DNA of 64,000 nt from Sulfuricurvum sp. (GTDB taxonomy: Bacteria > Campylobacterota > Campylobacteria > Campylobacterales > Sulfurimonadaceae), in assembly GCF_028688295.1 (NCBI RefSeq), contig NZ_JAQTYM010000001.1, forward strand, positions 1 through 64,000, given 5' to 3'. Made by a program: the position numbers and the translations under genes. The stretch's first letter is position 1, and the number at the start of each line of letters is the position of its first letter. Under the pieces are notes generated by a model. The model ran no database searches and was not told where the DNA came from. It saw only the letters and a program-made list of their open reading frames with translations. This document shows positions 8,762-55,105 of this stretch, piece by piece.

Positions 8762-9724
8762 TTATCTTCCAATTAAACGTATTTCCATATCATTCATTTT
8801 CTCTACAATCAACGGTAAAATATTTTCACTTTTAGTTTTGTCGATAAAGCCATCAGCACCTAAATTGGCTGCTTCTCTTTTATTATTATCCCCTGTCATG
8901 GAACTATTGACGATAATCGGGATTGCTTTTGTTTCAGGATTGCCTTTAAGGCGCTGAATAACGGTAAAACCTGACATTTCAGGCATTTCAATGTCGGTGA
9001 TAATGGCGGGGATAGATGAGGGGTTTGGATGTCGCGCAATAAACTCAATCATATCTTTACCATTATTGAAAATTTGATAGCTGATGTGTGCGTGTTCGAA
9101 AATTTGTCTTAAATGACGTTGTGCCGTTTTAGAATCTTCAGCAATCAAGACGACACCGTTTTTGAGTTTTGCGGGGATAGTAATTCCAGCAAGTGAGTTG
9201 GTTGCCGATTCAACATTCACCATCGCTTGAGGGATGACTTCAGCGAGAAGTTTTTCATAATCAAGAACTAAACATAAACTTCCATCATCGAGACGGGTAT
9301 CATTGATCACCAGACCATCATCACCGAGTCGGTAGCTATCGGGTGAGTGCATTTCATTCCAGTTCTTTTTAATGACACGATAAGCGTACATAATACGAAT
9401 ACCGATAATAATACCGTTGAAATCACAAATCAAAAGATTCGATGATTTACGGTTTGCGTCTTCAAGTTCTACACCGAGCCATCGTGGAAGATTAAGAATG
9501 GGGATTTGCATTTCACGTAAAACGATTGTACCTTCCAATAAAGGATTAGCACCCGGAATTTGTGTGAGATGATGACGTTTCGCTTCAACAACTTCACGTG
9601 TTTTAAAAACGTTAATCGCGTAATACGGGGACGATTCTGCAGCATCAATTTTAAAAACCAAAAGCTGTACTTCATTATTTTTAGCTAAGTTGGTCGCGGC
9701 ATCGACATGTTCTAAAAGAGACAT
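8762..9724 (-). CDS. cheV: Chemotaxis coupling protein CheV (CheW + receiver)
   Basis: A 320-residue two-domain scaffold linking chemoreceptors to CheA. The N-terminal CheW-like domain spans about residues 15-165 (including LEGTIVLREMQIPILNLPRW). The C-terminal receiver spans about 190-315, with acidic pair E196/D197, phospho-acceptor D244 in TDIEMPEMSGF and a late lysine in FIDKTKSE. All key receiver residues are present, so it should be phosphorylated by CheA and tune adaptation. It is a lone gene in its direction between convergent oadB and the divergent fusion-protein gene. Campylobacterota usually hold one to three cheV genes. Confidence 0.93.
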   Translation of the reverse strand: MSLLEHVDAATNLAKNNEVQLLVFKIDAAESSPYYAINVFKTREVVEAKRHHLTQIPGANPLLEGTIVLREMQIPILNLPRWLGVELEDANRKSSNLLICDFNGIIIGIRIMYAYRVIKKNWNEMHSPDSYRLGDDGLVINDTRLDDGSLCLVLDYEKLLAEVIPQAMVNVESATNSLAGITIPAKLKNGVVLIAEDSKTAQRHLRQIFEHAHISYQIFNNGKDMIEFIARHPNPSSIPAIITDIEMPEMSGFTVIQRLKGNPETKAIPIIVNSSMTGDNNKREAANLGADGFIDKTKSENILPLIVEKMNDMEIRLIGR

Positions 9725-50865: not shown

Positions 50866-50881
50866 CGGGTTTTAAAACCCG
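50866..50881. terminator. Palindrome between convergent genes, possible terminator
   Basis: CGGGTTTTAAAACCCG, a perfect 16-bp palindrome just after the SH3 gene stop and over the rhodanese stop. It lacks a loop and a clear T-run, so it might be a protein-binding site or a weak bidirectional terminator. Confidence 0.35.
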
Positions 50882-51384
50882 TCCCATGGCATTTTTGCCT
50901 CTTTCCATCCGAACATAAATCCGTTATCGAGGTTATACGCTTTTATCCCCTCTTTGGCGAGGACGTTGGCAGCCGCTTTTGAGCGGGGTCCGCTTCGGCA
51001 GACGAGAATAACTGAATCGGTATTGCGAAGTTTCATCGCCTTCATAACATCACTGACGAAATTTTTGTTAAATACCTCCTTAGCGTCATAAAGCTTTTGA
51101 ATCTCAATATGCCCTTTTGGTTTATCATTTTTGAGTTCAAACTCGGCACTTTTAACCCGCTCTTCTACTGATTTAGGGATATAGGTCCATTCATACGCAG
51201 GGATATTGATAAATCCCTCACCATGCCCCGTATAAATAAACTCAAGGGTTGTACGGACATCGACGATAATGGCTTCCCCTTTTTTTTGCATCTCATGCGC
51301 TTCTGCTGCGGTGAGGTCACCTTCATAAATATCATCTGCATGTAAGGTAAATACCATTAGTAGGAGAAGAAGAAGTTTTTGCAT
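50872..51384 (-). CDS. Exported rhodanese-domain protein
   Basis: A 170-residue protein. Signal peptide KLLLLLLMVFTLHADD; rhodanese fold with active-site cysteine in ILVCRSGPRSKAA, preceded by VDVRTTLEF, the entry motif of the domain. Such periplasmic rhodaneses handle sulfane sulfur, fitting a sulfur-oxidising lifestyle, but this is inference. I chose ATG 51384 (MQKLLLL) with AAGGGC upstream; the frame stays open to 51501, but the extra residues lack signal-peptide sense. Confidence 0.82.
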   Translation of the reverse strand: MQKLLLLLLMVFTLHADDIYEGDLTAAEAHEMQKKGEAIIVDVRTTLEFIYTGHGEGFINIPAYEWTYIPKSVEERVKSAEFELKNDKPKGHIEIQKLYDAKEVFNKNFVSDVMKAMKLRNTDSVILVCRSGPRSKAAANVLAKEGIKAYNLDNGFMFGWKEAKMPWDGF

Positions 51385-51484
51385 TATTAAGCCCTTTAAA
51401 TATAGTGAACGTGATTGTATCTCATTAAGATTATACTCAGATGAATAAAAACAGGGTATTATTTGAAAAAAGCAATGTGGGCCT

Positions 51485-53383
51485 ATGGTTGAAGTAATCA
51501 AAATTGTATATGTTACCGATTGGATGATTGGGGATTATAATTTAGCGGATCAAGATCCATTTATAAATGTCATACAAGGGTTCAATGCAGAGTTGGAGAT
51601 TCGGAATGATTTTCCCGAATATTTTGATGAAATCGATCTTTTGATTCTCCATCCGATGCAAATGAGCAATGAAATTTTTGAGACCATAAGCCGCAGTAAA
51701 ATCCAAAATCCCGCTATTAAAACGATTGTTATTTCAAGTGCCCACGGGAGTGATCTGTTTTTACAAGCAATCGACGTAGGTGTTGATAAATATCTCCTTA
51801 AACCTCTTTTACCGAGTGCAGTTCAAAAAGTCGTAGAACGGCTTCTCTCCCAATCCTTAGAAGCCAAAGGGGCGAAAAAAGCATACCGACAAATCAATTT
51901 GATGTTCGGATCGATCTCAAAAACCGCATTGGTAATACGAATCGCACATAATGGGATGATAGCAGAGGTTAATACGCTATTGAGCGCATTAGTCGGTATG
52001 GCACCGAGTGAGATGATCGGGCATTATTGGCTCCGTTTTGTTGAACAGCGATTTTGGATATATCTTAGAACCTTGGTTCGTGCACACTTGCAAGCGGGAG
52101 AGATTTATCGGGGAATTATCGAGATTACCGGTGCTAATAACCAAACGATTACAGTCGACTCTACTATTTATGCCGTTTTAGACAGTCGGGGAAATATCGA
52201 AGAGGTCGTTTTTATCGGGCATGACGTCAGTGAGATGAAACGGGCTATTTTGGAAAGTATGAAACAATTAATCGATTATGATACCTCCTTGGCCGTATTG
52301 TTCGACCATCGCTATGAAGCAATTATGGTTAACCGTAAATTTTTGGAAATCAATGGGTATCAGAATTTTGATGCCTTGGTAGAGAGTTGCGATTTATGGA
52401 CGTGGATGATGGAAACTGAGGCAGGCTTACAGCCTATCTATTCAAAAAAGTATTCTCAAAAAGATGGGCTTGAATATATTGTTAAAGAGCTAAAAAAAGG
52501 GCATATTAATGGACGAATTATCTCTGTTGATGCTAACAATAATAAAGTGTACTATACCGTCCATATGAGTTCTATGACCAACCCGTTGATTCAGAATGAA
52601 TATTATCATATTCTTTATTTTGTGGATATGAGTAATTTTGAACGACTGAAAGAAGAGAAAATAAGTGATGCAAAGCTGATGAGTGTCGGTAGGTTAGCTG
52701 CTGCCATCACTCATGAAATTAATACCCCTATCACCTATATCAAGGGGAACCTTGAGTTGCTAAAATGGGAATGTGAAGGGAAGATTGACCAACTAGAGAG
52801 CTATTTCAAGCCGATTGATGAGGGTATTGAGAGGATTGAATCTATTGTGGGATCTATGTATGAATTCGCCGGTACTGGGAAAGAAGTGATGGGTATGTGC
52901 AGTGTTGATATGACCCTTATTTATGGATTACGTATTGTTATGAATCGTGCAAAACATATTGCTCCTATACGTCTAAACGGTCATTTGTTTACACTGCGGA
53001 CAAAATATGACCCAAAAAACTGTATAACGATGGGAATTCCTACGCGACTCGAACAAGTGTGGATTATTGTTATAAACAATGCGTTAGATGAATTTGAAAA
53101 AGGTATAATACCTTATGAAAATCGTCGGCTTGATGTTTGGTTGAAATGTGATGGCGATGAGATTACGATTACTATTAGTGACAATGCCGGAGGAATACCG
53201 AGTGAGATGTTAGAGACTCTGTTCGATTTTGCAATTGCTGGAGAGAAAAAAAAGAGCATGGGAATCGGATTGAATGTTGCCAAGGCTATTATTGACAAGC
53301 ACGGTGGAAGTATCCGAGTTTCAAATGATAATGATGGTGCCGTATTTGAAATCAGTTTGAAAAAATACAAGGAGGAAAAATAA
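51485..53383 (+). CDS. Hybrid sensor: degenerate receiver, PAS domains and histidine kinase
   Basis: A 632-residue cytoplasmic protein without membrane helices. Residues 1-125 form a receiver-like domain that keeps the late K ([10 protein letters not shown]) and the S/T (IVISSA), but the phospho-acceptor position, in DLLILHPMQ, appears to be His instead of Asp. PAS domains follow (about 150-265, and a second, weaker one at 270-385). HisKA has phospho-histidine H410 in ITHEINTP; HATPase has [17 protein letters not shown] and [10 protein letters not shown]. Its stop overlaps the chemoreceptor start by one base. Confidence 0.85.
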
Positions 53384-54705
53384 TGTTTTTCGGAAAAGAA
53401 GCAGCAAAATATAAAGAAGAAGCGGATATCTTACGAGTTGAACGGGATATTTTGAAAGCTGAACTTGTGTTGTACAAAGAGATAGCAGCATTGAGTCTCA
53501 AAGAAGCGATTATAGTGTTAAATGATCGGGATGAAGCAATTTTTTACAATACCCGTGCAGAATCGATCACCAATAAATCAGCGGTTATCAAAGAACTCGC
53601 AAAAGGTTCTTCCGAGATCATTGTCGGCGAATGTGAGGCTTCGGTTGAGAGCAAAAATTTGAGTAACGGAGTGAAAGGCTTTATCCTAACGAAATCATCC
53701 GTAATCGGCGGTGAGCAGGGTGGATTGCTAGAGATGCACCAAAAGAGTATCAAAGGGGCACTGGATGCAACTCAGCATGTTTTTGTTGATATTTTAGCAA
53801 AACTTAAAGAGATGGTTGAACAGTCTAACGAAACCGCACGTGGCTCAGATGAAGGGCTTGCAATCGCTAAACATGTTGATGACGATATGGGGACTCTTGC
53901 TGAACTTATGGAGGGGACGATCTCTACAACGTCTAACCTTGTTAACCGATCACATGAAGTTTCAAGTGTTGTTGCTTTAATTAAAGATATCGCCGATCAA
54001 ACCAATCTTCTTGCACTGAATGCAGCAATCGAAGCAGCACGGGCAGGTGAACATGGTCGAGGGTTTGCCGTCGTCGCCGATGAGGTGCGTAAACTGGCAG
54101 AACGTACCCAAAAAGCGACCAAAGAGATTGAAATCGTGATTCAATCGATGCAGCAAGATACTAATGAGATTGAAACCGCAACGGAAGAGCTTTCGGGGAT
54201 TGTCTCTACAACAAAACATGAAGTTTCAAAAATGTCAGATCGTATGTCGATTTTCCAACGTAACGCATCAAGAAGTGTTTATGAGATTATGGACATCAGT
54301 AACTATATTTTTAGTAATTTAGCAAAAATAGATCACGTTATTTATAAAAACAACGTGTATGCCTTTTTGTTCGGGCAAGAAAATGGGTTTAAAGCGGTTG
54401 ATCACCATACGTGTCGTTTGGGTAAATGGTACGATAGCGGTGTGGGTAAAGAACAGTTTGGAATGCTTAAATCGTATAGTCGCTTAGAAGCTCCACATGG
54501 TGTGGTCCACACACAGGCAAATGCACTGATAGCCGATTGTGGAGATGGTAAAAAATTGTGTTCACGTACTCAAATTGAGCAACGTATTCGAACGATTGAA
54601 GAGGCAAGTAAAACGGTATTTGAAGTACTAGATTTACTGGTCAGTGAAAAAAATGACAATATGATGGGCACAGCTATTAAAGACTTATTCAAAGGAGAGA
54701 AATAA
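53383..54705 (+). CDS. Soluble methyl-accepting chemotaxis protein with CZB domain
   Basis: A 440-residue chemoreceptor without transmembrane helices. A coiled coil (1-45) and a PAS-like small domain (about 45-110) precede the MCP signalling hairpin with its conserved tip [20 protein letters not shown] at 202-221. The C-terminal part has a CZB zinc-binding domain: H318, H341/H342, C344 (CRLGKWY) and H372/H376. H. pylori TlpD has the same plan and senses oxidants in the cytoplasm. One-base overlaps with both neighbours indicate coupled translation with a kinase and a receiver. No cheA or cheW is in this operon. Confidence 0.88.
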
Positions 54706-55070
54706 TGCATTTAATGATTGTTGATGATGAGATCCAAATCGGGACAATGTTGGAGAAAGTACTAACGCGATCAGGAGATATCAAAGTAACTTATTTTGAT
54801 AATCCAATCAATGCTCTTTCTCGCTTTAGAAAAGGTGAATACGATGGTGTTTTACTCGATATTATGATGCCTCAAAAAGATGGTCTGAGTGTTCTAGAAG
54901 AGATCAAAAGTAAAGATCCCGAATGTATTGTTATAATGATGACAGCGTATTCTACACTGGATAAAGTGCTCCAAAGTCATAAAATCGGTGCCGATCATTA
55001 TGTTCTAAAACCGTTTGATTCACTTGCAAATGTTGAGAAAAAAGTACGCGAATTGGTTAAAAAGCGATAA
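54705..55070 (+). CDS. Stand-alone response-regulator receiver
   Basis: A 121-residue single receiver domain. Acidic pair in IVDDEIQIG, phospho-acceptor Asp in GVLLDIMMPQKDG, Thr in MMTAYST and Lys in YVLKPF: all needed residues are present. Without an output domain it must work by protein-protein contact, as CheY does. It ends the kinase-chemoreceptor-receiver operon; a terminator follows. Confidence 0.9.
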   Translation: MHLMIVDDEIQIGTMLEKVLTRSGDIKVTYFDNPINALSRFRKGEYDGVLLDIMMPQKDGLSVLEEIKSKDPECIVIMMTAYSTLDKVLQSHKIGADHYVLKPFDSLANVEKKVRELVKKR

Positions 55071-55076
55071 GAAGAG

Positions 55077-55105
55077 TAGGAGGTTTTATGACCTCCTATT
55101 TTTTT
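55077..55105 (+). terminator. Rho-independent terminator of the signalling operon
   Basis: TAGGAGGT pairs with ACCTCCTA (8 bp) around TTTATG, then seven T. It starts 7 bases after the receiver gene stop. Confidence 0.88.

Follow-up and report, generated by a model that had tools for sequence, protein, structure and literature searches.

A candidate tlpD operon of Sulfuricurvum with a putative cognate histidine kinase and receiver

Through which kinase would a soluble chemoreceptor signal when its gene overlaps those of a histidine kinase on one side and a lone receiver on the other? The question is raised by a locus in a stretch of 64,000 nucleotides from Sulfuricurvum sp. (positions 1 to 64,000 of contig NZ_JAQTYM010000001.1, assembly GCF_028688295.1), called the window here. 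TlpD, the stress sensor of Helicobacter pylori to which the receptor in the window had been likened, is among the best-studied cytoplasmic chemoreceptors. It is needed for efficient colonisation of the stomach, and the working of its N-terminal region is unexplained (PMC12871147).

Layout and domain architecture of the locus

The initial annotation had described a kinase, a soluble CZB chemoreceptor and a lone receiver joined by two TAATG overlaps and closed by a hairpin, a layout with which both the open reading frames and the Pfam matches agree. All three frames lie on the plus strand, TAATG at 53381-53385 and 54703-54707 makes a one-base overlap of both gene junctions, and the starts of the second and third genes are preceded by AGGAGG and AAGGAG, respectively. 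A divergent rhodanese gene (50872-51438, minus strand) lies upstream, and genes for DUF4395 and Rrf2 follow downstream. Since the arrangement is found again in tens of genomes, it is not due to chance. Its features are as follows:

51485-53383, plus strand: cytoplasmic histidine kinase, 632 aa (Pfam; sequence)
51485-51874, plus strand: N-terminal receiver-like region of the kinase, aa 1-130 (weak Response_reg match, 19.7 bits)
53383-54705, plus strand: TlpD-type cytoplasmic chemoreceptor, 440 aa (Pfam MCPsignal and CZB, 53.9 bits; alignment; tree)
53632-53634, plus strand: codon for residue Cys84, which falls in the PAS-type region of the receptor (45/45 module receptors; 0/17 comparison receptors)
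53938-54132, plus strand: CheA/CheW-binding hairpin tip of the receptor, aa 186-250 (comparison with other MCPs)
54334-54510, plus strand: CZB zinc ligands H318, C344, H372 and H376 (alignment; ligands from PMC12871147)
54538-54561, plus strand: codons of Cys386 and Cys393 (each kept by all 45 module receptors)
54705-55070, plus strand: single-domain receiver, 121 aa (Pfam Response_reg, 83.9 bits)
55077-55105, plus strand: terminator-like hairpin TAGGAGGTTTTATGACCTCCTA followed by T7 (sequence; the same palindrome appears on the minus strand in a palindrome scan)

The kinase has Pfam matches to PAS (aa 148-250), HisKA (402-462) and HATPase_c (518-627), and a second PAS-type domain (about 259-395) follows the first (about 148-250). 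Its phospho-accepting histidine, H410, lies within HEINTP (codon 52712-52714), and this and the other catalytic motifs (NNALD, DNAGG and GxGL) are invariant when the kinase is compared with 16 relatives. The first 130 residues, overlooked in the initial annotation, probably form a pseudo-receiver, because the phospho-Asp position reads LLILH; intact receivers take the same place in the kinases of loci L049 and L075, and the domain is likewise intact in related kinases of family f17 and of genus g5 of family f1. The input domains of the kinase differ widely among lineages and include membrane dCache, PAS and receiver domains.

In the lone receiver D7, D8, D52, T80 and K102 are all present and are invariant in 14 relatives. 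The kinase thus carries the phospho-His, N, G1 and G2 boxes, and its partner the DD, D, T and K residues, of a HisKA pair, and the two proteins very probably are cognate, with phosphotransfer predicted from one to the other. T80 and Y99, in the region of CheY T87/Y106, are invariant among the relatives of the receiver. Of the residues with which CheY binds FliM (W58, K91 and K119), W58 is replaced by I53 and K91 by T84, and with two of the three missing it is unlikely that the receiver acts directly on the motor.

The receptor consists of an N-terminal helix and PAS-type region (1-112), the hairpin tip, a CZB domain that begins at residue 306 (Pfam match 318-382) and a tail to residue 440. Its N-terminal region aligns with that of TlpD and has no Pfam PAS match, and it is modelled there at a pLDDT below 50 (residues 41-120) in an AlphaFold2 model built from an alignment of 8 rows. 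A sequence search of the PDB with the receptor returned other chemoreceptor hairpins only, with no TlpD entry among them. The four zinc ligands, which correspond to H315, C340, H368 and H372 of TlpD, are kept in 45/45 module receptors and in lone TlpD. Three further cysteines, C84, C386 and C393, occur together in every one of the 45 module receptors and as a full set in none of the 17 comparison receptors (12 Helicobacter-type, four from family f23 and one from genome G187). In the AlphaFold2 model C386 and C393 stand on either side of the loop that joins the last two CZB helices (369-389 and 395-437), and in the crystal structure of TlpD the PAS domain lies close to this loop (PMC12871147). 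As the two cysteines border a loop near the PAS domain of TlpD, a joint site of C84 with C386 and C393 is possible. The link between the cysteines and the partner genes is not a strict one, since the f23 receptors lack this set and yet their genomes have both receiver and kinase.

Conservation across the order

Of 299 genomes searched in the order, 53 encode the full-length receptor, 52 the receiver and 50 the kinase core. Kinase and receiver co-occur in 48 genomes, receptor and receiver in 50, and receptor and kinase in 49, where about nine would be expected; the hypergeometric values for these counts take no account of relatedness and cannot be read as if the events were independent. The receptor adjoins the receiver in 46 of the genomes inspected, and in 38 of these the orthologous kinase lies alongside. 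The three genes are therefore adjacent in many genomes and not in this strain alone, and the dedicated, conserved module of the initial annotation is borne out by near-perfect co-occurrence, whether the genes are adjacent or dispersed. Within the genus of the window itself the distribution is patchy: the sister genome G212 has the module, and G137, G170 and G288 are without it.

Gene order varies with lineage. The order kinase-receptor-receiver is found in the window, in G212 and in families f15 and f17 (the kinase being divergent in one f15 genome), and receptor-receiver-kinase in other members of f1, in f7 and in f20, which is Sulfurospirillum as identified through Sulfurospirillum cavolei UCH003. 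Most genomes of f9 (Arcobacter-type) have an extra PAS sensor between receiver and kinase; in L057:4318-6252 and L064:4562-6733 the kinase core of this extra protein is degenerate or weak. In f2 and f21 the kinase occupies a different locus, and so it does in f23, where two genomes have the receiver at a separate locus as well. Co-occurrence still holds in all three families. At L128:6657-9476 (f23) a shorter second CZB receptor follows the TlpD-type receptor in tandem, the receiver being elsewhere in the genome.

Several genomes have only part of the module or an altered form of it. Receptor and receiver are kept in G004 and G024 without a kinase of the module family, and in G070 (L123) an unrelated kinase replaces the module kinase beside them. 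In G043 the receptor has given way to another one, which is membrane-bound and matches CZB weakly (28.2 bits, slightly under the cut-off), and receiver and kinase still adjoin. A variant module at L071:6800-10534 comprises a HAMP-containing membrane receptor that matches CZB weakly, a receiver and a short kinase that itself begins with a receiver domain. The receiver is broken, with receptor and kinase kept, in G291 (f9), by an insertion that carries a transposase-like ORF, and in G296 (f6), by a frameshift (L056:4641-6938 and L055:10391-10817). A further locus, L054:12800-16504, holds an ORF of 1234 aa that begins MMMLHAFTNQYQLSKTLRFGA and that, we presume, resembles Cas12a.

A search of a set of genome contigs with the kinase alone detected no relative. 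The receptor profile, whose matches were dominated by common hairpin patterns, found no module member among those listed from that set, which is a weak test outside the phylum; the matches listed from there are CZB receptors that share the hairpin and the CZB domain and are without the N-terminal region of the receptor.

Two alternatives bear on this distribution. If kinase and receiver were a separate two-component system with an output of its own (e.g., metabolism or c-di-GMP), sharing the operon because the same redox conditions concern both, the wide variation of kinase input domains would be natural. Against this, no constant output gene adjoins the module in the neighbourhoods inspected, and the linkage survives both the dispersal of the genes in f23 and the exchange of the receptor for another CZB receptor in G043. 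The receiver could also be a chemotaxis-type CheY, known in Arcobacter as CheYm, that competes with CheY or drains its phosphate at CheA, or that integrates the signals of CheA and the kinase, with the receptor left untouched. Mo et al. gave the name CheYm to the receptor-adjacent receiver and assumed a chemosensory role for it (PMC9321776), the T80/Y99 pair is invariant, and CheA is present in all receptor genomes but one. However, the I53 and T84 replacements speak against direct motor output, and the receiver tracks the module kinase over 48 genomes, which a receiver served by CheA only need not do. We regard a CheYm-like role of this kind as improbable.

Orthology with Helicobacter TlpD and loss of the partner genes

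The receptor and Helicobacter TlpD are 38% identical over 406 aa. Genomes of f14 (Helicobacter-type) encode a colinear receptor of 433-440 aa, and a named Helicobacter MAG gives an equal full-length match. The receptor at L133 (433 aa) has C35, H221, D314, H315, C340, R341, W345, H368 and H372, as in the published TlpD (PMC12871147), and its gene stands in the order tlpD-bioF-PBP1A with flagellin A close by. A bridging order, receptor-receiver-bioF-PBP1A, occurs in L119 and L118, with an ABC gene before PBP1A in L118. In the maximum-likelihood tree Helicobacter TlpD (100/99) is nested within the receiver-linked receptors, with L119 (98/94) and then L118 (90/86) as its nearest relatives, and other CZB receptors from the same and other genomes fall apart from this group. 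On tree and gene order, the receptor in the window is an ortholog of Helicobacter TlpD, so that the likeness noted in the initial annotation is one of orthology and not of analogy. The module receptors align with TlpD across the N-terminal PAS region, for which the fold is predicted only; this is unlike the statement in a recent preprint that the PAS domain is missing from most TlpD orthologs outside Helicobacter.

In profile searches, receiver and kinase were both absent genome-wide from 18 f14 genomes and from G187. Tree and synteny point the same way: on the path to Helicobacter the receiver disappeared from this locus and the kinase from the genome as a whole. G187 (L129, f9) has lost both partners at the same genomic position, and its receptor groups with that of L123 (G070) in the tree; this Arcobacter-like lineage lost both partners independently of Helicobacter.

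What became of the receptor after such a loss can be followed in G187. Compared with f9 receptors, its tip is 85% identical, and the identity falls to 27% in the PAS region, 32% in MA-N and 29% in the tail; an equally distant control pair gives 43%, 50% and 51%, respectively. The CZB domain has 59% identity against 74% for the control, and the product of the neighbouring housekeeping gene, YmdB, evolved no faster in G187 (64% against 66%). These comparisons show a marked divergence of the sensory end of the receptor in lineages without the kinase-receiver pair. Both this rate shift and the loss of the cysteines are weakly replicated, because independent losses are few (the Helicobacter lineage and G187, G070 being a case of kinase replacement). 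Retention of the receptor alone in Helicobacter and G187 is in keeping with kinase and receiver forming a separate system, but the divergence of the distal half of the receptor upon loss of the pair argues against that alternative, which we consider improbable, a little more so than a CheYm-like role.

CheA coupling, proposed role and known systems

The core of the hairpin tip in the window receptor is identical to that of most other MCPs of the host genome. The module receptor of Arcobacter-type genomes has the distinct tip FQTNILSLNAAVEAATAGEAGKGF that is common to the other MCPs seen there, and in both cases the tip is compatible with the CheA/CheW of the host. Arcobacter exchanged its ancestral F3 chemosensory class, with its CheA, for F7 (PMC9321776), and the receptor tip therefore followed the change. 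Threonine in place of a conserved arginine of the tip was considered as a mark of receptors uncoupled from CheA and was rejected, as it is common to all Arcobacter-type MCPs inspected.

CheA was found in 52 of the 53 genomes with the receptor, the exception being the assembly of the window itself, in which 17 MCPs, two CheW-domain genes and no CheA domain were detected. As this assembly has 137 contigs and is 93% complete, and as three CheA genes are present in the sister genome, G212, the gap is probably one of incompleteness. One of the two CheW-domain genes lies in the window (9239-9667, minus strand; an open frame of 324 aa, a CheV-like size) and the other on contig C133. TlpD of Helicobacter drives CheA via CheW/CheV1 (PMC13001251, PMC6715182), the binding of CheW/CheV and the control of CheA being known for the H. 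pylori protein only (PMC13001251).

The initial annotation had let the chemoreceptor control the PAS kinase in the place of CheA, with the receiver as the output of that pathway. Adjacency, translational coupling and the missing CheA domain in the assembly of the window would agree with such a circuit, but the tip follows the CheA class of the host, the gap in the assembly of the window is probably one of incompleteness in view of G212, TlpD works with CheA (PMC13001251) and the receptor persists without the kinase. The CheA profile led us to reject the module as a substitute for CheA, and we regard the replacement of CheA/CheW by a non-CheA kinase as very improbable. In all likelihood the TlpD ortholog signals via CheA; given its standard tip, the presence of CheA in nearly all receptor genomes and the action of TlpD on CheA, kinase and receiver are best seen as an addition to the CheA route.

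We therefore read the locus as a tlpD operon in which the receptor would sit in a CheA array and a cognate kinase-receiver pair would tune it, a reading of the sequences whose chances we put at about even. The soluble receptor, in which a short hairpin lies between a PAS-type N-terminus and the zinc-thiolate redox site of a C-terminal CZB domain, would join the CheA/CheW(/CheV) array and report on redox, oxidants or zinc inside the cell. The soluble PAS kinase would sense a second internal cue and phosphorylate the lone receiver, and its HEINT motif predicts phosphatase activity as well. The phosphorylated receiver would then act on the distal PAS/CZB end of the receptor and bias the control of CheA, which would make the pair either a further input or a means of adaptation. 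That the receiver acts on the receptor is plausible, with odds even or slightly short of even; two proteins that serve one physiological role and make no contact could equally be adjacent and lost together. We hold it as rather unlikely, in this specific form, that the phosphorylated receiver docks on the PAS/CZB end near the cysteine site, with C84 and C386/C393 as a metal site or a redox switch, and so sets the control of CheA, and that this arrangement is ancestral in free-living Campylobacterota and was stripped in Helicobacter.

By this comparison TlpD descends from a receptor that was once accompanied by receiver and kinase, and the N-terminal and tail regions are those that differ most between the two states. 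The puzzling PAS region of TlpD is thereby explained in evolutionary terms, and a testable case is gained of a two-component system that would act on a chemoreceptor and not on motor or transcription. The presence of kinase and receiver with the receptor across free-living relatives, and their loss in the Helicobacter line, suggest that this well-known receptor is under a second control that has gone unstudied.

In the open-access literature searched (on CheYm, on TlpD with response regulators and on CZB receptors with kinases) the triad of receptor, receiver and kinase had not been described before, nor did we find there the link of TlpD to receiver and kinase, its spread or its loss in Helicobacter. 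CheYm is probably the module receiver of Arcobacter-type genomes, being receptor-adjacent with the T/Y pair kept; however, it was described for Arcobacter only, as a CheY of unclear origin, without the kinase partner, the link to TlpD or the spread across the order (PMC9321776). The sensor/regulator triplet AB0416-AB0418 of A. butzleri would fit the Arcobacter layout of receiver, extra PAS sensor and kinase, a correspondence judged from that layout, whereas it was listed as a two-component triplet without a chemoreceptor (PMC2147049). With McpA of Salmonella and other cytoplasmic CZB receptors the window receptor shares the succession of MCPsignal and a C-terminal CZB domain, but the CZB receptors of other phyla (McpA not included) form a separate branch, and their matches span the hairpin and CZB and not the N-terminal region. 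The closest likeness is to H. pylori TlpD (HP0599 type), with which it shares a full-length alignment, the domain order, the zinc ligands and the CheA/CheW tip; Helicobacter is without the receiver, the kinase and the C84/C386/C393 set, whereas the window receptor is encoded together with an overlapping kinase and receiver.
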